From the NCBI GenBank assembly GCA_020718645.1, contig DYRQ01000014.1, positions 1-32,548 of the forward strand: DNA of 32,548 nucleotides, written 5' to 3'. The notes under the pieces were generated by a model. That model saw only the letters and a program-made list of their open reading frames with translations, searched no databases and was not told where the DNA came from. The stretch's first letter is position 1. Each line of letters begins with the position of its first letter. This DNA is from Verrucomicrobium spinosum. Lineage in GTDB: Bacteria; Verrucomicrobiota; Verrucomicrobiia; JADLBR01; JAIBCM01. The position numbers and the translations under genes are program-made. Of this stretch, positions 16,407 through 28,787 are shown one piece after another.

Positions 16407-19385
16407 TTATGACGAGAGCGGAGGAGAGTTCTCGGCTAGAGCAGGCCAGAGTGTAAGTATGGCTTGGCGGGTAGTAGCAAATTCTCGGACAACATCCTCA
16501 GTGATATTTTTAGCGTGCGACAGCTTCCCTTCTTTGGCTGCTTGTTCAAGGGATTTGAGAGCCCCGACCAAGCGAGCGGCACCTACGATAGAGAATCCAC
16601 CTTTGAGCTTGTGGGCTAGGTCAGCTGCTGGCTGGCCCTCTCCCTGTTCGATGTGGCGGATCAAGCTGGCAATTGAGCCTGGTGCTTCTGACAGCAATGG
16701 CTGGCAGAGGGATAGGAGTAAGTCGTGATCCCCTGCGGTCTGGCGGAGTGCAAATTCTTTATCGAACGCGCCAGTGTCATCTTTCGTTGGCTGGGCTGGA
16801 GGTGTAGTGGGCTGCGGGGCAGCAGTCTTAGTTTCAGGGAGCCAAAGGCGGATTTTTTCCACTAGCAGTGTGGGGTCAATAGGTTTGGTGAGGTAGTCGT
16901 CCATGCCCGCGGCCAAGCAATCTTCTTCATCGCCTTTCATGGCATGAGCTGTCAGGGCGATGATACGGGTATTAATTCTGTCCACACCAGCGTGTCCTGT
17001 GCGGATGGCGCGCGTGGCCTCGTGGCCGTCCATCTCCGGCATCTGCACATCCATGAGAATGATGTCGTAGGGTGTGGTGGAGAGTGCTCGGACAGCGTCG
17101 CGTCCGTTGGCGGCCACATCCGCTGTGTAGCCGAACTTTTTCAAGATACCGAGAACGACGGTCTGATTGACGGTATTATCCTCAGCGAGCAGTATTTTGA
17201 TGTTGGCGGCTTCGGGATCTGGCGCTGTGGAGAGTGGAGCGGTGGCTGGGCGGGTGAGTAGGGGCGGCTGGGTAGTGGAGCGATTTTTTACGGCATGGGA
17301 AAGGGCTTGGAAGATGTCTGCCCGGCGGACGGGCTTGGTTAGAAATGCGCTAAAACCAGTCTGCAAAAAGCGTTGAGCATCGGAGAGATGGTCAGCCGAA
17401 GACATCATGATGAGGCGGGTGTTGGCGATTTCTGGATCTGCTAGGATGCGGTGTCCCAGCTCTTCTCCATCCATGCGGGGCATTTGCATATCGAGGATAG
17501 CGATGGGGATGGGTTGTCCTCGTTTTGCTGCCTCTTGGAGTATGCGTAAACCTGATATAGCATCGCTGGCTTCGATAGGGCGGATATCCCAGATGCGGAG
17601 TATGCCGCGTATGATAGCTCGGTTGGTGTCATTATCGTCCACCACCAGCACTTCCATTCCTCGCACACAGCCGAGATCTGTTGTTACGGGGGTTACAGAT
17701 TTACCTTCGGGCAAGGTGATCTCGAACCAAAATTCCGATCCACGCCCCTCTGTGCTTTGGACTCCGATAGAGCCGTCCATGAGGTGGATGAGCTGCTTGC
17801 AAATTGCTAGACCTAGACCGGTGCCACCGTATTTGCGAGTGGTGGAGGCATCGGCTTGGCTGAACTTGGCGAAGAGCAAAGATTGTTTCTCGGCAGAAAT
17901 GCCAATACCCGTATCGAGCACTGAGAAGCGGAGGGAGATACGGCCTGTTTGCGAAGCGAGGACTCGGATTCGCACCACGACTTCGCCTTGGTGGGTGAAT
18001 TTGACAGCATTGCCTACCAAGTTGAAAAGGATCTGGCGGAGGCGGTTTGAGTCGCCGCAGAGGACGGAGGGTATTTCTGGCGGGATGTCGCAGAGCAACT
18101 CAATTTTCTTGGCATGGGCTCGGGGAGCCATGACTGCAGCCAGCTCTTCTACAAGGTAAACCAAGTCGAAATCAGTAAGGTCGAGTTCGAGTTTGCCCGC
18201 CTCGATTTTAGAGAAATCTAAAATGTCATTGATGATGGAGAGCAGGGCTTCTGCGCTGGAATCGGCGGTCTCGGCCAGTCGTCGTTGTTCGGTATTGAGG
18301 GGGGTGTCCATGAGCAAGCCCAGCATCCCCGTGACACCGTTGAGCGGGGTTCTGATTTCATGGCTCATGTTGGCTAGGAATTCACTCTTGGCTTTGCTTG
18401 CGGCCTCGGCTTCGTGCTGGAGCCTGCTCAGGCGGGCATAGACCCAAAAGGCTGCCAGAGCACTCAGCAGGAGTAAAACAGCTCCGGCGATACCGAGGCG
18501 CAAGGTGGTCTTGCGGATGGTGGCCAGCGCTTGTTGTTCATCTGCGGCAGCGATGATGACAGAAGACCAGCTCTCGAAACTGAGGGGGGCGTGGGCGCAG
18601 ACAAAAGAGCTTGTGACGCTGCCAATGCGAGCCGAAAATCTTCCTTCGCTAATTATTTTTTCACGGGCATCAGATTGCAGAGCGGAAATCCAGCTTGGAT
18701 CGAGGACAGCTTCTGTGAGAGTGCGACCGGCGCGGTTGACATCGAGTATGCTGCCGTCTGGTGCTGCCAAGAGGATGGAGAGTTCAGGGCGAGCCACTCC
18801 AGTTTCTCGGAGCAATTCGCGCATAGCAGTGTCAGGTTCGAGGACAGCAGTGATGTGGCATTGCCCAGCACGGCCATGGATTTCAATCTCTCTGCCCCCC
18901 AAGGGAGGCCACGAGGAGGTATTTTGAATGGGGGATATTTGGAGATAGTTTCCCTTGCGGATGCGTATGATACGGCCTTGTTCTGTATCACCTGTGAGGC
19001 GCAATTCCCGAAGGAGGGGGGTATGGAGCAATAGAAACCGTTTCAAGCAGGGCAGAGGTTCTAGAGCAGTCTCGCCAGACGCTAAAATCTGAGCGAAAGG
19101 GATAGTGGATTGGGAGAGGGTGAAGGATTCGCGAAAGCGCTCCAATTCTCGGACAGCGTGTCGGGCATCATTTTTGGCAAGTTCCCGGACTTGCGCCGAC
19201 GCTTGGACAAGCTGGTCTTCATGGATATGATGGATCATCCATGCAGATGAAAATAGAGTTGCGGCGACCCCGACCGCCAGAAGGCAGGCGGGAACTGCAG
19301 AAGATCTCCACACTGGGAGATCTGTCTGAGACTGACTCCCAGACTTGTGCTCGCGCTTTTGTCTCGCTGCTGTGCGGGGTTTCAC
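16407..19385 (-). CDS. membrane hybrid sensor histidine kinase (sensor-HisKA-HATPase-REC-REC-Hpt)
   Basis: two TM segments; [10 protein letters not shown] (His342 codon 18360-18362), [33 protein letters not shown]1 [16 protein letters not shown]2 [13 protein letters not shown]; Hpt DLAHKLKGG. Confidence 0.95.
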
Positions 19386-19409
19386 GGTGGTGGCTCGAAA
19401 GCCTGAGTT

Positions 19410-20441
19410 TTACAGCTTTTCAAAAACCACGACAGTGAAATTGATGCCTGGCACGATGGAGGTGGAGGCATGGTATTTCCCAGAGGCTAGGTCGAGGGAG
19501 AGCGGGCTTTGCGAATGGGCCGTGGTGAGGCGCTCGCTGATCTGGCGTATGGCGCGGTTTGGGCTCTTGGTTACATTGTAGTCATCGGCTTTGTAAGTAT
19601 CTTTTTTCACTGTTTCCAAGTAGCGATGCTCTTTGATGCGTGGCATTTCCATGATGGCGATGGCGTCCTCTGTGGCAGCCACCAAGACGCCTGTGCGGGC
19701 GAACACCGCTACAGGTTTTTTGCTGTGCTCCATGTAGCGCTCGGAGATAGTGTCGAGGGTCACATCGAGACCCACAACACCGAGGAGTTCTGTCCCGCTG
19801 TAAACAGGGGCGATGGCACTGATCATCCAGCCGCGCCCAGCAGGATCCACATAAGGCTCATCCACCCACACGCCCTTGCGGCTCGGGTTATGTTCTGCGT
19901 CGGCGAGGTAGTAGAAGTTGAACTTGGGTATATCCATTTTCGGCTCGTATTGTGTCAGCACATCCATCCACGGATAAATACGGTTCAGGCTGTTGCGGTC
20001 GTTGTAATAAGCTTGCACCACCGAGGGGGTTTCCTTGCAGATGCGCTTGAGTTCGGCGTCCATGGGCTCGGTCAGATAGGCTACTTCTTGCACTGGTTCC
20101 GTGATGGGCACAGCACCTGATATCCAGAGTGCAGCGCCGCCATCGTTGACCGGTTTATAGAAGGCCCCGTCTGGAGCTGTGGTATAACGGCTCTTATCCA
20201 CGCTGGGCAAAATCTCGGCTTTGCGGGTGTAGAGATCGAGGGTGTAGGTCGCTAAAGCCTCAACGCTCTGTAGAGCCAAAGCACTATCTTGAGCGATCTG
20301 GTCTGCAATGATGGTGGCGTCTGCCGAATTTTTTGGGGCGGGCGAGCAGGCCGTTAATAGTAATGATACCGCTAAAGCCCGGTGAGTTGATCTGACAGTT
20401 TTAATGCAAAGAGAAGAGAGGCGATTCATGTATAGGAACAT
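19410..20441 (-). CDS. lipoprotein with Cache-like extracellular sensor domain, no output domain
   Basis: lipobox-like SLLLTACS; dCache-like GVWVDEPYVDPAGRGWMISAIAPVYSGTELLGVVGLDVTLDTISERY; stop lies 24 nt before the kinase start. Confidence 0.75.
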   Translation of the reverse strand: MFLYMNRLSSLCIKTVRSTHRALAVSLLLTACSPAPKNSADATIIADQIAQDSALALQSVEALATYTLDLYTRKAEILPSVDKSRYTTAPDGAFYKPVNDGGAALWISGAVPITEPVQEVAYLTEPMDAELKRICKETPSVVQAYYNDRNSLNRIYPWMDVLTQYEPKMDIPKFNFYYLADAEHNPSRKGVWVDEPYVDPAGRGWMISAIAPVYSGTELLGVVGLDVTLDTISERYMEHSKKPVAVFARTGVLVAATEDAIAIMEMPRIKEHRYLETVKKDTYKADDYNVTKSPNRAIRQISERLTTAHSQSPLSLDLASGKYHASTSIVPGINFTVVVFEKL

Positions 20442-20646: not shown

Positions 20647-21327
20647 TTAGAGGACATTGCCTGTTTCGCCGAGCTTTTTGGCTTTCTGGGCATCGTTAGT
20701 AGAGATGAAACCGCGCTCTGCCATATATTCCGAGAGGGCTGCAGTGGTCTCGCGAGAGGTGCGATTAGCGTCTTCGGAGAGGCCGCGCACTGTGTGTTTG
20801 ATGACGGCGAGCCCAGCAGAGATGGGGCCTGGGCTGGTCAGGATGCCGGGTTCAGCGTTGCTACCCCCTGTGGTGACAAAGCGCATGAAGGGTTTAGTGC
20901 GGGAGATGGAGAGGTCATAGACGAGCACTTCGGTTTCCATCTTGGTGCCACCAGCACCGAGTCCGAGGGTCATGCGCAAAGCGCGGCTGCCTTGGTTCAC
21001 GCGGATAAAGCGGCCAGTAACTAACCAACCTTTTTTGAAGGAGGTTTTGTTGCCAAGGATTCTCTGGGCTGGTGCCACGGCTTTGCCTAGCCGCTCCACG
21101 AGGAGGTCGGAGAGCATGGCAGTGAGGTCGGTTTTAAAGGTTTCTAGCTCTTTGCCCTCGCGATCCACATTAAACTCGGCACTCTCTGTGCTGAAATCCA
21201 TCACATAGAGCGTCTCGGGCTTAGTCTTGGGCTCAGTAGTCGTATTTTTCTGGACATCTTTGACACTGACTGACGCGCAGCCTGCCAAGGCGATAGTGCA
21301 GGCAAGGATAGCTAGTATTTTGCTCAT
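20647..21327 (-). CDS. lipoprotein, DUF4410-like
   Basis: internal ATG of 20647..21759 ORF: MSKILAILACTIALAGCASVSVKDV with lipobox LAGC; GRFIRVNQGSRALRMTLGLGAGGTKMETEVLVYD resembles DUF4410 proteins. Confidence 0.75.
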   Translation of the reverse strand: MSKILAILACTIALAGCASVSVKDVQKNTTTEPKTKPETLYVMDFSTESAEFNVDREGKELETFKTDLTAMLSDLLVERLGKAVAPAQRILGNKTSFKKGWLVTGRFIRVNQGSRALRMTLGLGAGGTKMETEVLVYDLSISRTKPFMRFVTTGGSNAEPGILTSPGPISAGLAVIKHTVRGLSEDANRTSRETTAALSEYMAERGFISTNDAQKAKKLGETGNVL

Positions 21328-21370
21328 AGAAAAACGCTTTGGCACAGGTGTAGGGTTGGTGTGGTCTGAA

Positions 21371-22792
21371 TTACTGGGCACGACCGAGGGGTTCGCGCAG
21401 GTGGGCGGGTTGCCCAGTGGCTTCCACTTCGCCGCAGATGTCGGTGAGGCGCAAGAAGGAGAGGAGGGCACTGCGGGTTTCAACTTCATCGGGGGAGGTG
21501 GCTTCAATCGGGATGTGGAAGCGACCATCGGGGAAGCTGAAGTGGTAGCTGAAGGTTCCGTCTGGGCGGAGTTTGATCTGCTTGCCATCAATGCGCACGG
21601 TGGCGTTCGGGTCTGTGCCACCGTAGATGATGAGTTCCGCGTTGACATGCATGTAGAAATTGCGATCCCGCCCAGTCTCGCCAGCCGCGCCGAAGGCGCC
21701 GCCAGGGCTGCTGAAAGAGGAGACACCAGCACCAGCGACTGTGGCGCCAGCAGCGGCACCCCAAGAGGTCATAGCACCGCTGGAGAGACCACCTAGGCCG
21801 CTCTTTTCGAACCCGCCGAAGCCCGAGATGCTCTGACCCATCATGCTGCCCATGAGTCCGCTGGACATGCCGCCGAGCGCGAAGCCGCTACCGCCTACTG
21901 AGGAGAGCTGGTCTTGGAGGCGCTGGCGGATGACCTCGGAGATCTCGTAGGAGCCCATGTTGATGCGGCGGGTGATTTCGCCGCCGAGGTAGTTGAGAAG
22001 CATCTGCTGCTGATCGGGGCTGGTGCCGAAATCGGCTCCGATGTCGAAGGGGAATTGGAAGCCCTGCTCCTGGAGGCGGGTGATCGCTTCGCCCAGTTCC
22101 TCCCCATCTTGCATATGCAGACCGACAAGCTCGAGGAGTTGGCGGAAAGTGAAGTGAAAGGGGATGGTGACAAAGCGGGAACGGACGTCATCCGAGACAA
22201 AGTCACGGGGGGCGACGGCCAAGTTGGAGCGACCGAGGGATTCAAACTGGTGCTGGCGATTGTAGAATCCGAGTTCGGCGTAGAACGAGGAGCCGGGAGA
22301 GCCTGCATTGATGAACCAAGTCCGGCAGCCTTGGGGAATCTGGATTTGCTGCACCTGAGTGCCGGCAGGGGTGTAGAGTTGCAGGAAGACTTTACCGTCG
22401 TGCGAATTTTCGATGGCCTGCTGGTATTGCTCGTGGTTCAGATCCCAGTAGGCGTAGAACCAATGAGGGTCGCGTGCCACGAGATAGACGCGGCGGGTGC
22501 CGTAGAAAGAGGGGAGTTCACCGAGATCTTCGAACTCTGGCACGGGGCGATAGGCTGACTGTGGCTCGGGTTGCGAAACGACATATTTCAGTGCAGAAGG
22601 ATCTTTGTCCGTGACGATGCGGGGCTCGAGGCGGTCAGCGTTTTCGGCGGCACTACGGGGGGCTGTGCTGCGGCGAATCTGGGAAACGGCCTTGGCTGCC
22701 TCGGCTTTGACTCTGCGGATGGCACGAGCCCGTGACTGTGTTGTGTTCTTGCCTTTCGCCGTTTCGTCGGCTTTTTTATCAGCTCTGGCCAT
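21371..22792 (-). CDS. DUF4912 domain-containing protein with glycine-rich C-terminal half
   Basis: VYLVARDPHWFYAYWDLNHEQYQQA...RTWFINAGSPGSSFYAELGFY; Gly/Ser-rich linker; terminal ELIIYGGTDPNATVRIDGKQIKLRPDGTFSYHFSFPDG. Confidence 0.85.
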   Translation of the reverse strand: MARADKKADETAKGKNTTQSRARAIRRVKAEAAKAVSQIRRSTAPRSAAENADRLEPRIVTDKDPSALKYVVSQPEPQSAYRPVPEFEDLGELPSFYGTRRVYLVARDPHWFYAYWDLNHEQYQQAIENSHDGKVFLQLYTPAGTQVQQIQIPQGCRTWFINAGSPGSSFYAELGFYNRQHQFESLGRSNLAVAPRDFVSDDVRSRFVTIPFHFTFRQLLELVGLHMQDGEELGEAITRLQEQGFQFPFDIGADFGTSPDQQQMLLNYLGGEITRRINMGSYEISEVIRQRLQDQLSSVGGSGFALGGMSSGLMGSMMGQSISGFGGFEKSGLGGLSSGAMTSWGAAAGATVAGAGVSSFSSPGGAFGAAGETGRDRNFYMHVNAELIIYGGTDPNATVRIDGKQIKLRPDGTFSYHFSFPDGRFHIPIEATSPDEVETRSALLSFLRLTDICGEVEATGQPAHLREPLGRAQ

Positions 22793-22977: not shown

Positions 22978-23589
22978 CTATAAATCTTTGTGCCAGACTG
23001 TGATAATATGGAGTGACCGACCGAAAATCCACGCCAACCACCATGGATAAATTTTCGGAGCCTTTTCCTGATTGTCCAGGTGCCATCCTGCAGGGCGTGC
23101 TGTTTCCCAGTCTTCCGGAGCCCAATACCAGAGAGGGAGAGGGATGCCGTGGTGGAGGTTGCCAGCGATGTCCATGGCGGAAAGCGTGAGCCAATCCCAC
23201 GCGGTCTGGCAGCAGTGGTCTTTGATGATCACGACTCCCCGTGAGACTCGGCAGGCTTCGCGGATGACACGGGCTGGGTTTTCCGAGTGGTGTAGCATGT
23301 CAACCATCATGACGACATCGAAAGACTCGTCTCCGTAGGGCAGGGTTCTGCCGTCGTAGGCAGTCACTGGCACAGAGCAATGGAGGCGTGGGGCGATATC
23401 CACGGCAGAGGGGGTGAGGCCGGGTTTCAGTTGGCAGCAGAGAGCTAGGATGGAGCCATCACCTGTGCCTATATCGAGGATAGTGCCGGATTCTGGTAAT
23501 TGGCGGGTCAGAGCTGAGGACAGGCGTTTGACTCTGCTGGGGAAGATGCAGGAGCTATGGAGGTCGGCCAGAGTCCAGACAGGTTTCAT
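22978..23589 (-). CDS. SAM-dependent class I methyltransferase (Methyltransf_11-like)
   Basis: start ATG at 23589 (MKPVWTLADLHSSCIFPSRVKRL); GTILDIGTGDGSILAL, LPYGDESFDVVMMVDMLHHSENP; ATGA overlap with upstream gene. Confidence 0.85.
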   Translation of the reverse strand: MKPVWTLADLHSSCIFPSRVKRLSSALTRQLPESGTILDIGTGDGSILALCCQLKPGLTPSAVDIAPRLHCSVPVTAYDGRTLPYGDESFDVVMMVDMLHHSENPARVIREACRVSRGVVIIKDHCCQTAWDWLTLSAMDIAGNLHHGIPLPLWYWAPEDWETARPAGWHLDNQEKAPKIYPWWLAWIFGRSLHIITVWHKDL

Positions 23590-26192
23590 TCTTCGATCCA
23601 CGGTTTGCGGTTGGCGTAATGTGAGGCGCGCAACTCTATGGCGCGAGCACCTTCTTCGAACTGCCCTTTGCGGCAGAGGTCTGCTGCCCGGTGGGCGGTT
23701 TCGATGGCCTCGGTGTATTTCCCGAGCCGGGCGAGTGAGGCTGACAGGGTGTCGAGAAAGGCGGGGTTCTCTGGGTTGTTGTTGGATGATTTTTGAATTC
23801 TCTCGAGAGCCTCCCGGTGTTCTTGAGTAGAACTCCACGGTGCTGTGGCCATGATCCAAGCAGCGTTATTCTGGGCATCGCCGACCCCGAGGTCTGCGGC
23901 TTGTCGGTAAAAAACGAGAGCCTGTTGTTTATGGCGGGTGTTGAGAAGGAGGGTGGCAATCTGGAAGGCGGCTTGAGCCCGAGCTGGTTCAGGCAGCAGC
24001 CGGAGAGTCTTGTGAAACAGTGGCACGGCTTCTTGCGTGTCGCCCGTGTGAACCTTCGCCTCGGCCAAGCGCATCCAAATGAGGGGTTGCTCTGGCATGA
24101 GATGGCAGGCCTGATTCCATTTGCTGGCGGCCTCCTGCCACAGCTCATGGGATGCCAGATAATCTCCTTGATAGAAAAGAGCATCTCCCCGTTCTTGCCC
24201 AGGCTCCACGGCGCAAACGAGCACATCCCATTTGAGATCCCGCAAGCCCGGCGGGATGCTGTAAGGAAGCGGCCTGAGCCAATCTGGCAATTCACGCCCA
24301 AAAAAAACTTTTGCACCAAAAGTCTGAGCTAGGTGCTGGCTGGGCTCTGTTGGTTTAGCGAGGTCGAAAAACTGCTGGATAAAGTGCTCGTAGCTAATGA
24401 AGGCAATGTGAGTGGTGGCGGAGTTTTTTAGTAACGCCAGTGCCTCGGCATCGCTGGTGGCGCTGTGTATAGCCGCGGCTTTTTTGAGTCCAGGCATATT
24501 CTCCCAGAAGAGGGAGCAGACACTGGTGAGATCTGAGAAATAGCCTAGGGGGGTGGAACAAGTAGGATTACTCAAGAAAACGGCTTTGCCCCCCCCCTCT
24601 GCGCGGATGAAATGCGCGATGTCTCGTAGGGCGAGCATGAGTCCTTCGTCTTGCGAGATGTTTTTTTGACGGGTGACCGCCTCGATTCGTTGCAGGTAGC
24701 TCACCGGTGTAGCGAGCGTCGTAGCCACTACGAACACAGCTAGGCAGTTCCGGAGCCACACGGGAGAGAGGGAATCCGAGATCCAGATACCAGCCGGCAC
24801 ACAGCAGCAGAGCCATGCCGCTGCCGCTACGAGGCTCCACCGAGTTTGCAGGGCAAAGGCCAAGGTCAAGGCTGCTGCCAGACCAAGAAAAAGGAGGCAC
24901 AGGCGCCGTATTCGCAGGGGGGTCTTTTTGTAAAAGGCTGCCCAAGCCAGCAGCAGCATGGGTAGTGGGGCTAATCCGATCAGGTGCAGAAACGGGGTGA
25001 TTCCAGATTGCTGAACTCGTATCCAGATAGGCAGACATTCGATGATATGCTCCAAGAGACCCGTGAAAAAGGGATCTCTCATCACATAGACGGATGATCC
25101 GCCGAGTGCGATAGTGACGGGTAATGCTGCAAGGCAGACCAGGGCGATGGCCCAGCGACCTATCTGATCACGGCGTGCGTGGATATGCCAGTTGGCCATC
25201 ATTTCTAGGAGCAGCCCGCCGCCGAGCCAGGCCAAGGAGTAGAGGGGATGGTTGGCTTCCAAGCGCCACGAGAGGTGGTTGGGGAAATATTCTAAGCCAT
25301 AAAAAAATAGCGAAGAGGCACAGCCTGAGTAACCCCAGAGCTTCCAGAGTTCAGGTTCCCCATTGGGATCTTGGCGCTTGGCTTGTAGTCCACCCAGAGA
25401 CAGGGTGGCTAGTGCCGCGACGCCTAGGCAGAGCAGCACGATGGTCATGGTGACCGCGCTGGCCCAGAGGGCGATGCCACCGAAGAGCCCAGAGAGCATG
25501 ACCCAGTATTGGCGGTGCCTGTGACTCATGCCTCTCGGGAGGGATGTCCAGCCAGCCCCGGAGATGGCCAAGCAGAGTGCCATGCCGACGATGGCGGCAT
25601 TGATCATGCCGTGGTGGTCAGGGTAACAGGGGAAAAATGACTCGTAATACAGGGCGCTTCCTGCTGCGGCGCAGGTGGTCCAGATCGCTGGAAAGACTCC
25701 AAACTTGGCGCGGATCATGGCGCCAAAAACAAGAAGGCACCCGATCAATAAAAGTGGGTTGGCCCATCCTGCCATCACTTCGATAGAGGCTCGGAGGGAT
25801 GTTCCTGTGGCAAGGGAGTGGCACTTGCCCAAGGTGATAAGCCACCAGCAGAAGCCTGAATTCCAGTGCAGTTCGCGACCTTCGGGGGGATTGTCCAGAG
25901 TGACATGGCGGAGACGCCAAGCCCCGCGGTCAGACATCTCTTGTGCGTAACGGATCCAAGCATAACCATCCACTGCAAAAGATGGGAGGATCAGGTTTCT
26001 TCCTTCCACTAGTTGAGCTGAGTTGGGTGGGGGAGCGAACTGGCTGCTCGCGTAATGCTGTCTTGCGGTGATCCCATGGGTGTGGTGGAGGATGTAAACT
26101 GTGGCGAAGCACCAAGTCAGAAGCCAGCAGACCCAGCCAGCGTAGTGGCGAATGCGGTTCCGTGGTGCGGCTGTGTCAGGCGAGTCCTGCAT
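23586..26192 (-). CDS. multi-spanning membrane protein, GT-C/STT3-oligosaccharyltransferase-like, with C-terminal TPR region
   Basis: 868 aa with many TM segments; VDGYAWIRYAQEMSDRGAWRLRHVTLDNPPEGRELHWNS loop and YESFFPCYPDHHGMINA motif; TPR-like repeats (ASKWNQACHLMPEQPLIWMRLAEAKVHTGDTQEAVPLFHKTLRLLPEPARAQ). Confidence 0.7.
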   Translation of the reverse strand: MQDSPDTAAPRNRIRHYAGWVCWLLTWCFATVYILHHTHGITARQHYASSQFAPPPNSAQLVEGRNLILPSFAVDGYAWIRYAQEMSDRGAWRLRHVTLDNPPEGRELHWNSGFCWWLITLGKCHSLATGTSLRASIEVMAGWANPLLLIGCLLVFGAMIRAKFGVFPAIWTTCAAAGSALYYESFFPCYPDHHGMINAAIVGMALCLAISGAGWTSLPRGMSHRHRQYWVMLSGLFGGIALWASAVTMTIVLLCLGVAALATLSLGGLQAKRQDPNGEPELWKLWGYSGCASSLFFYGLEYFPNHLSWRLEANHPLYSLAWLGGGLLLEMMANWHIHARRDQIGRWAIALVCLAALPVTIALGGSSVYVMRDPFFTGLLEHIIECLPIWIRVQQSGITPFLHLIGLAPLPMLLLAWAAFYKKTPLRIRRLCLLFLGLAAALTLAFALQTRWSLVAAAAWLCCCVPAGIWISDSLSPVWLRNCLAVFVVATTLATPVSYLQRIEAVTRQKNISQDEGLMLALRDIAHFIRAEGGGKAVFLSNPTCSTPLGYFSDLTSVCSLFWENMPGLKKAAAIHSATSDAEALALLKNSATTHIAFISYEHFIQQFFDLAKPTEPSQHLAQTFGAKVFFGRELPDWLRPLPYSIPPGLRDLKWDVLVCAVEPGQERGDALFYQGDYLASHELWQEAASKWNQACHLMPEQPLIWMRLAEAKVHTGDTQEAVPLFHKTLRLLPEPARAQAAFQIATLLLNTRHKQQALVFYRQAADLGVGDAQNNAAWIMATAPWSSTQEHREALERIQKSSNNNPENPAFLDTLSASLARLGKYTEAIETAHRAADLCRKGQFEEGARAIELRASHYANRKPWIEE

Positions 26193-26252: not shown

Positions 26253-28787
26253 TTACTGAGGTGTCTCCATATCCGATTGGAGTTGGGCGAGCGTTTCATC
26301 GTAGGCGGCGCGGACTTCGGGGAGGAGGCTGGGCACCTGGCTGATGTCGTTGTCGCGACCCATTTTTTCGATGGTCTGACAGATTTTCACGAGGCGATCG
26401 GCTTCGAAATTTGAGGCGCTACCCTTGATGGTGTGCGCAATGCGGGTCACGGTCTTGATGTCCTGATTAGCGAGCGCAGCGTCCAATTCCCCCAGGCGTT
26501 GGGAGGTCTCTTTGAGGAACATCTCGATCAGGAACGGAGGGAGGTCGAGTTTGGGTCGCTTGGGCGGGCTGGGTGGAGCGAGCTTGGCAGCCTCCAGTGC
26601 CAATTCCTCTTCGTCCATCTCCTCGATGGAGGGGTGCGGGGGCGGGGCGGTCAGGGGCTCTGCGCGGGCAGTAGGGGTGACAGACGATACTATTTTACTG
26701 AGTATTTTAGAGAGGGCAGAAGGGATGAGAGGTTTGGCAAGGAAGTCATTGACCCCACAGATGGTGAAACGGCTCTTCTCGGCAGCGCTGCTGCTGGCGT
26801 TGAGAGCGATGATGGGGATGGTGCGCCGGATGCTTGAATAGTCACCCGAGCGTATGCGGCGTGTGGCCTCGATGCCGTCCATGACGGGCATGTGGCAGTC
26901 CATGAGCACGGCATCCACGGGTTGTAGAGCTAGTAGGTCCAAGGCTTCTTGTCCGTTGCCAGCGATCAGGGGGTGATGTCCGAGTTTCTCGAGGAGGGCC
27001 TTGGCGATCTCTTGGTTGGCGGAGCTGTCATCCACTACCAAGACAGTGAGCGGATGAGTGGAAGTGGCCGGTTGCGCCTGCGCTGGAGCAGCAGGGTGGA
27101 TGACGGCTTTTTTGGCCAAGGTGTCGTGGAGGGATTGAGCTGTGACAGGGCGGTAGAGGACGGCATCTATTCCCGCCTTGGTGATTTCAGCAGGGCTTGG
27201 CTGTGTCTGTTTGTGGCAGAGCAACACCACTTTAGATTTCTGAGCCGCGGGCAATTTTTTCAGGGTGCGCGCCAGTGATAGGGCGTCGAGGATGCCAGGG
27301 TGATGGGCGAGGATGATGAGGTTGAAGGCTGCACCCTGCTCCGCATGGGTGCTCGTCCAAGTAGCTGCGTCGTTCGGATCAGGGCAAGACTTGTAAGCCA
27401 TACTCCACGAGGAGAGCCAAGAGGTGAGAACCTCCCGGTGCGCAGGCACGGGTTCTACCAGCAAAGCGCGTATGCCCCAGAGAGTCTCTTGTCGGGATGC
27501 TTCCTGCGTGGGCTGCACTTTTTCAAAAGGGAGGGTGAGGCGATAAACCAGATCCTTGCTGGGTTGGCGCTCGGTAGAGAGAGAGCCACCCATTTGCTCC
27601 GCCCAGTGATTACAGAGCGGGAAGGCGATGGAGGCAGGCTGGATCAAGTCGTGCCCAGTAGGGTCTGGAACTGTGTTTTGGGTCTCATCCCATGTGGTAA
27701 ATATGTCCAACTCGACCAGCGATTGTTGGGGGGTATCTTTGATAATCTGGAGGTTGAGGGTGAGAGTTCCAGAGGCAGTTTGCGAGGCGGCGCATTCCAG
27801 AAGCAGCGAGACCATGCGTATCAAACGGGCGCGGTCGCCAGACAGGTGGCGCGGTAAGGTTTGTGGGATACGGCAGAGCAACTCGACTTTTTTCTCTGTG
27901 ATTTTTGCACTGCTGGCGCAGAGACTTTCCTCCAACGCATCGAGTAACTCGAACATTTCAGAGGAGAGTGGGGCCGGGACACATTCTAGTCCCGAGAGGT
28001 CGGCGATATTTTCAGCTAGGGTGCAGAGGCTCGAAGACTGGGAAGCGATGGTCTGGACCTGTGCTCGCTCGGCATGGTCGAGATCGGTGTCGAGCAACAA
28101 ATGGGCGAATTCGGTAAAACCCCTTAGGGTGGCTTGGATTTTATTCGCGAAAGCAGCCAGTCTGAGCTGGGAGGTGCGGAGAGATTCAGAAGTGGTGCAG
28201 GTCAGTTTTTCGAGGTTGGTTGCGGCCTTCTCCACCTGAGTTTGGAGCAGGGAAACCTGTTCGTGCTGGCGAGTTACCAAGGCTTTCTGCGAGCTGATCT
28301 GCGAGGCGGCTACTGTCAAGATCCGGTGGGGGTCAGCCACCCCGGTCAGGCGGTCGTCTTCTTGCAGCACCAAGAGAGCGTGGGGATGGTCGTCGGAACC
28401 AATCGGTAAACCGAGCACTGTCAACACCTGCTCGATGGGGGCGTCCACAGCGATAGTGTCAAACAGAGAGACCATAGCCTCAGAGATGCTTTTCTTTCGG
28501 GACTGGGGTGAGGCAAAGCCGAGCCCCCCTTTTCCCGCTGGCTGGCGGGCATGGACTTGGCGACAGATGTCTGCATTGATGACGCCGATGGGCTTGCCAT
28601 CCTCCCCACATACCGGGAGCCATGCCCCGGGGTGTTTCTCGAAAAATGCGTGCGCCTCCTCCCAACGACTGTCTGTTCGCAAAGAGAAGCGGTGTGCCAG
28701 ACAATCCACTAACCACGGGGGAGGGGCACTTATGGCGGCAGCGTCAATATCGGGGAGGGCGTTCAATAAGTCACTATAGTCTGGCAA
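26253..28787 (-). CDS. CBS-containing hybrid histidine-kinase-like protein with degenerate kinase core and first receiver; intact terminal REC and Hpt
   Basis: CBS-like pair aa about 25-160; degenerate H-box FANKIQATLRG; pseudo-REC ALLVEPVPAHREVL...NLIILAHHPG; intact REC VLVVDDSSANQEIA...AVLMDCHMPVMDG; Hpt IAHTIKGSASNF. Confidence 0.9.
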   Translation of the reverse strand: MPDYSDLLNALPDIDAAAISAPPPWLVDCLAHRFSLRTDSRWEEAHAFFEKHPGAWLPVCGEDGKPIGVINADICRQVHARQPAGKGGLGFASPQSRKKSISEAMVSLFDTIAVDAPIEQVLTVLGLPIGSDDHPHALLVLQEDDRLTGVADPHRILTVAASQISSQKALVTRQHEQVSLLQTQVEKAATNLEKLTCTTSESLRTSQLRLAAFANKIQATLRGFTEFAHLLLDTDLDHAERAQVQTIASQSSSLCTLAENIADLSGLECVPAPLSSEMFELLDALEESLCASSAKITEKKVELLCRIPQTLPRHLSGDRARLIRMVSLLLECAASQTASGTLTLNLQIIKDTPQQSLVELDIFTTWDETQNTVPDPTGHDLIQPASIAFPLCNHWAEQMGGSLSTERQPSKDLVYRLTLPFEKVQPTQEASRQETLWGIRALLVEPVPAHREVLTSWLSSWSMAYKSCPDPNDAATWTSTHAEQGAAFNLIILAHHPGILDALSLARTLKKLPAAQKSKVVLLCHKQTQPSPAEITKAGIDAVLYRPVTAQSLHDTLAKKAVIHPAAPAQAQPATSTHPLTVLVVDDSSANQEIAKALLEKLGHHPLIAGNGQEALDLLALQPVDAVLMDCHMPVMDGIEATRRIRSGDYSSIRRTIPIIALNASSSAAEKSRFTICGVNDFLAKPLIPSALSKILSKIVSSVTPTARAEPLTAPPPHPSIEEMDEEELALEAAKLAPPSPPKRPKLDLPPFLIEMFLKETSQRLGELDAALANQDIKTVTRIAHTIKGSASNFEADRLVKICQTIEKMGRDNDISQVPSLLPEVRAAYDETLAQLQSDMETPQ

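Follow-up and report, generated by a model that had tools for sequence, protein, structure and literature searches.

The gene P0001 of Verrucomicrobium spinosum, carried by contig DYRQ01000014.1 of assembly GCA_020718645.1, almost certainly encodes a pseudokinase. Judged from its sequence, the product is paralogous to a CBS-HisKA-HATPase-REC-REC-HPt hybrid kinase and catalytically dead; its relay tail appears to be conserved while catalysis has been lost. The protein features a CBS-like N-terminus, a pseudo-HisKA/HATPase core, two receiver domains (REC1 and REC2) and an HPt domain. Positions in Table 1 and in the text refer to the window, i.e. the whole stretch of 32,548 nucleotides analyzed.

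Table 1. Features of the P0001 gene and positions in the window
Feature	Residues	Position	Strand	Evidence
Pseudo-hybrid histidine kinase P0001	844 aa	26253..28787	-	Open frame; domains from Pfam, alignment and structure prediction
CBS-like N-terminal sensory region	22-162	28302..28724	-	Pfam CBS; alignment to L027 and L002
Pseudo-HisKA/DHp	205-272	27972..28175	-	Alignment, counts; two-helix DHp in model; NKIQA in place of HExxT
Codon of Asn at phospho-acceptor His site	215	28143..28145	-	Alignment
Pseudo-HATPase	273-422	27522..27971	-	N-box LLLECAASQT; G1, F and G2 absent; ATP lid shortened, disordered
Dead REC1	436-558	27114..27482	-	Residue alignment; sub-threshold Pfam match
REC2	578-700	26688..27056	-	Pfam Response_reg, E 1e-26
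HPt	748-838	26274..26546	-	Pfam Hpt, E 4e-18; His785 and Lys788 kept

The frame of P0001 runs without interruption, the other two forward frames being closed by 24-25 stops each, and synonymous codon usage is normal in all domains. Translation is assigned to a TTG, but the start is uncertain, because the same frame stays open upstream of it for another 21 codons or so. An explanation of the losses described below by a wrong start codon or frame was rejected, as they sit within a single continuous frame. A promoter scan gave no hit. The source assembly is made up of 152 contigs, and is 94% complete.

In the kinase core the phospho-acceptor His is replaced by Asn215, the N-box Asn by Cys332 and the HExxT motif by NKIQA, and the ATP site has lost its G1, F and G2 boxes. 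In an alignment of 121 rows, which were picked by similarity, partly overlap and are not a survey, His is found in 109/109 of the other rows having a residue at this column, and loss of the N, G1, F and G2 boxes is restricted to P0001 and its duplicate fragment. The Asn at the His site, the replaced N-box and the unrecognizable G motifs had all been reported by a sequence-only reading of this DNA, and hold in the alignment. P0001 thus lacks each of the hallmarks of active kinases (H-box His; N, G1, F and G2 boxes), and has presumably lost autophosphorylation. REC1 is similarly altered, with Glu445-Pro446 at the acidic pair and Ala494, Cys524 and Arg546 at the positions of Asp, Thr/Ser and Lys, respectively. 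The residues on which REC-HPt phosphotransfer is judged are found in REC2 (Asp586, Asp587, Asp630, Lys685) and HPt (His785), except that REC2 features Asn663 at a position occupied by Thr in nearly all relatives, a change which may weaken switching.

Receiver and HPt domains, and a weak CBS match, are recognized by Pfam in the whole protein, HisKA and HATPase_c are not. Scanning of the core alone gave an HATPase_c match spanning the full profile (E 0.068), and residues 163-430 scored 80 bits against an HMM built on 70 intact kinase cores; among 500 shuffled sequences, the top score was 8 bits. The HisKA/HATPase homology proposed from the sequence is therefore found by profile. A fold of the same type, with two DHp helices and an alpha/beta sandwich, is predicted by AlphaFold2 for the core (pLDDT 82.5 on average, below 50 in the lid region); the alignment fed to the predictor otherwise consisted of intact kinases, and the model partly depends on the assumption of a kinase. 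Among solved structures, GacS and RetS come nearest, with DivL lower down, and the RetS-GacS complex is also among the closest. RetS and GacS are similarly the best matches of the core in a PDB sequence search (RetS, E 2.5e-14); many intact kinases match equally well, and no special kinship with RetS is shown. A comparison by hhalign was circular, the query being inside the alignment, and was left out of the evidence.

Of 67 conserved hydrophobic columns in the core, 57 are kept (p about 9e-13 vs. composition; the aligner somewhat favours matches at such columns); of 44 near-invariant polar, Gly or Pro columns, 32 are lost. This is, at the sequence level, the pattern expected of a fold kept without catalysis, not of decay. 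The idea that the core survives as a dimerizing or sensory module is plausible, and in this the earlier proposal of a retained scaffold stands; the term scaffold misses the conserved phosphotransfer residues of REC2 and HPt. The dead REC1, the preserved REC2 and HPt, and the CBS-like N-terminus had gone unnoticed in the same reading. Scanned alone, the N-terminal 162 residues match Pfam CBS with 26.8 bits (cut-off 24), and can be aligned to the CBS region of two intact hybrid kinases, L027 and L002, G-x-GFA motif included. The match to the N-terminal HMM of the family is weak (8.4 bits; shuffles at most 2.3), and the fold of the N-terminal 160 residues is poorly predicted in the full-length model. 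Residues 431-560, also scanned alone, gave a Response_reg match below threshold. The HPt domain of P0001 has the top HPt score in its own genome.

The best match to P0001 found anywhere is L027, an intact CBS-HisKA-HATPase-REC-REC-HPt kinase of 887 aa encoded by the same genome. L027 and L002 (43% identical to each other) form with L171, L172, L174 and L175 a group of CBS hybrid kinases, whose kinase motifs are intact in 6/6 members. P0001 clusters with the six in a tree spanning the core to HPt (support 99/99), at the end of a very long branch (3.9), and again in a tree based on REC2 and HPt only, from which degenerate columns are missing (98/96). P0001 thus shares the overall layout and the clade of these proteins, but is alone in lacking the kinase motifs. 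The layout had earlier been aligned to that of the intact kinase at 16407-19385; the alignments quoted were correct, and the two proteins are 26% identical over 509 columns (E 6e-42, in a single comparison), yet L027 is the closest relative by both score and tree. A duplication within the lineage of P0001 is possible.

Divergence is unevenly distributed along the protein. The ratio of the identity of P0001 to the six-member family to the identity within the family is 0.45 in the CBS, 0.31 in the DHp and 0.38 in the HATPase domains, 0.72 in both REC1 and REC2, and 1.05 in HPt. The DHp of P0001 is 23.5% identical to the family, vs. 76.6% among family members, and identity over the kinase core is about 21%. 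The REC1 value carries little information, since this domain varies across the family anyway, being degenerate in L174 and L175 and missing in L171. A search for orthologues of P0001 in 57 relatives, 384 genomes from the class and 388 from the phylum, plus further genome and viral contigs, retrieved none. Synteny is uninformative, because the neighbour P0003 has no match in four same-order genomes. A second candidate lacking the His, L173, was rejected, because a frame break divides what is an intact kinase. L173 (G234:C214, 906-4128) is a CBS hybrid kinase read in two overlapping frames, with two HPt-like regions at the end; the split is probably an assembly indel.

On balance, the REC2-HPt tail probably exchanges phosphate with other proteins, as a hub or a sink, combining traits of RetS and RcsD. 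The CBS and pseudokinase parts would fold, dimerize and pass on a cytosolic signal. REC2 could be charged only by another protein, since P0001 has no kinase of its own; L027 would be the first candidate donor, because the REC2-HPt regions of the two proteins share one clade. Phosphate would move from REC2 to His785 of HPt and then to a response regulator, or flow in the reverse direction, P0001 acting as a phosphate sink. The selectivity of the losses, which hit kinase motifs and REC1 residues and spared the Asp/Asp/Asp/Lys set of REC2 and the HPt His, argues for a relay, as do the low divergence of HPt and REC2 from the family and the fact that the genome also encodes L027, which is intact and has this layout. 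Against it, selection on the kept residues is deduced from paralogues only, no partner kinase or regulator was identified next to the P0001 gene, and both Asn663 and the length of the end branch must be taken into account. Tentatively, P0001 might be viewed as a cytosolic, CBS-regulated and kinase-free phosphotransfer hub, in which kinase and REC1 serve as a regulatory shell and REC2-HPt shuttles or drains phosphate for other kinases.

Alternatively, P0001 may be an allosteric partner similar to RetS or DivL, whose core heterodimerizes with an active kinase, either inhibiting or activating it, REC2-HPt being secondary. RetS, DivL and the RetS-GacS complex are among the closest folds, the hydrophobic core is kept, and heterodimers of paralogues are known, as RetS-GacS and ChrS-HrrS (PMC4866733, PMC9491836). 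This role is nevertheless unlikely. DHp is the most diverged domain, which is odd if pairing with L027 is needed, and REC2 and HPt are the parts best conserved; loss of the phosphatase motif HExxT makes RetS mechanism 2 unlikely in P0001, and speaks against a transmitter phosphatase activity of the RetS type. Decay is quite improbable: a slowly decaying pseudogene, unneeded and with a REC2-HPt region not yet eroded, would account for the very long branch and for the lack of orthologues in the relatives, class and phylum genomes searched, but not for 844 codons free of stops and frameshifts at such low core identity, nor for the normal codon usage of every domain, the hydrophobic columns kept, and an HPt as conserved as it is among active relatives. 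The intact frame and the view that this is not simple decay, both put forward from the sequence, find support here. That P0001 is an active kinase using an unconventional site or ATP pocket is hardly credible, as the retained fold is all that speaks for it, every ATP motif is lost, the lid is shortened, and Asn has no known role as phospho-acceptor in this kinase family.

Relay by the REC2-HPt tail, the reading preferred, has precedents, and P0001 belongs with the inactive kinases already described, as an unusual version of them rather than a novel type of system. RetS of Pseudomonas aeruginosa has a degenerate HATPase, and its REC2 takes phosphate from GacS (PMC5992135). Both RetS and P0001 are hybrid kinases with two REC domains and a degenerate HATPase devoid of G-boxes. 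The H-box and HExxT are kept in RetS (PMC5992135), whereas His and Thr are both lost in P0001, which in this respect falls outside the RetS type. Unlike RetS, P0001 features a dead REC1, an HPt domain and a CBS-like N-terminus. RetS is not known to have an HPt. The GacS HPt receives phosphate from LadS (PMC4866733). RcsD of enterobacteria lacks kinase activity and works as a relay through a C-terminal HPt (PMC5651002), a combination predicted also for P0001. However, the NCBIfam RcsD model (NF007907) matches residues 171-463 with 69.8 bits, far below the cut-off of 634, and RcsD sits in the membrane and has a periplasmic domain, whereas P0001 has a CBS-like N-terminus and carries REC2 in the same chain. 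DivL of Caulobacter has, like P0001, a kinase fold with a substituted His, and regulates another kinase (PMC5361649, PMC12189002); it senses a phosphorylated regulator, and is not known to carry a REC2-HPt relay tail. In PhyT, which has a degenerate ATPase domain, the roles of relay and negative regulator are combined (PMC5898713), and flow in P0001 may likewise run in either direction. A literature search on EspA/EspC and on CBS-domain kinases in Verrucomicrobia returned nothing useful.

HisKA domains without His are rare (722/76,471, about 0.9%; PMC12632262), and few proteins of this kind have been studied so far. Since the genome also encodes L027, which is intact and has the same domain order, it can be asked directly what stays useful once a hybrid kinase loses its engine, and the pattern seen in P0001 points to the relay tail. 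P0001 is a possible natural counterpart of an engineered, kinase-dead GacS chimera (H294A), with which wild-type phenotypes were still recovered when phosphorylation in trans was tested (PMC8175716).

In four relatives, a gene for a GYF-like/REC regulator lies right after the CBS hybrid kinase gene. The nearest homologue of this regulator in the P0001 genome is L197 (G000:C93, 60-1622, minus strand), a GYF-like/REC/Ser-Thr protein kinase fusion, the REC part of which is homologous to the regulator.

Additional genes of interest reside on the minus strand of the window. An 868-aa protein, hydrophobic in its N-terminal two thirds and ending with TPRs, is encoded at 23586-26192, 60 bp downstream of P0001; four same-order genomes yielded no homologue. 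The intact hybrid kinase mentioned above (992 aa) lies 24 bp downstream of a gene for a Cache-like (PDC) protein, the N-terminus of which resembles that of a lipoprotein (16407-20441 overall), and the two are a possible sensor-kinase pair. At 20647-22792 two listed ORFs overlap; the overlap is a listing artefact, since an internal Met, with a lipoprotein-like signal (MSKILAILACTIALAGCAS), is the more likely start of the DUF4410 gene found there.
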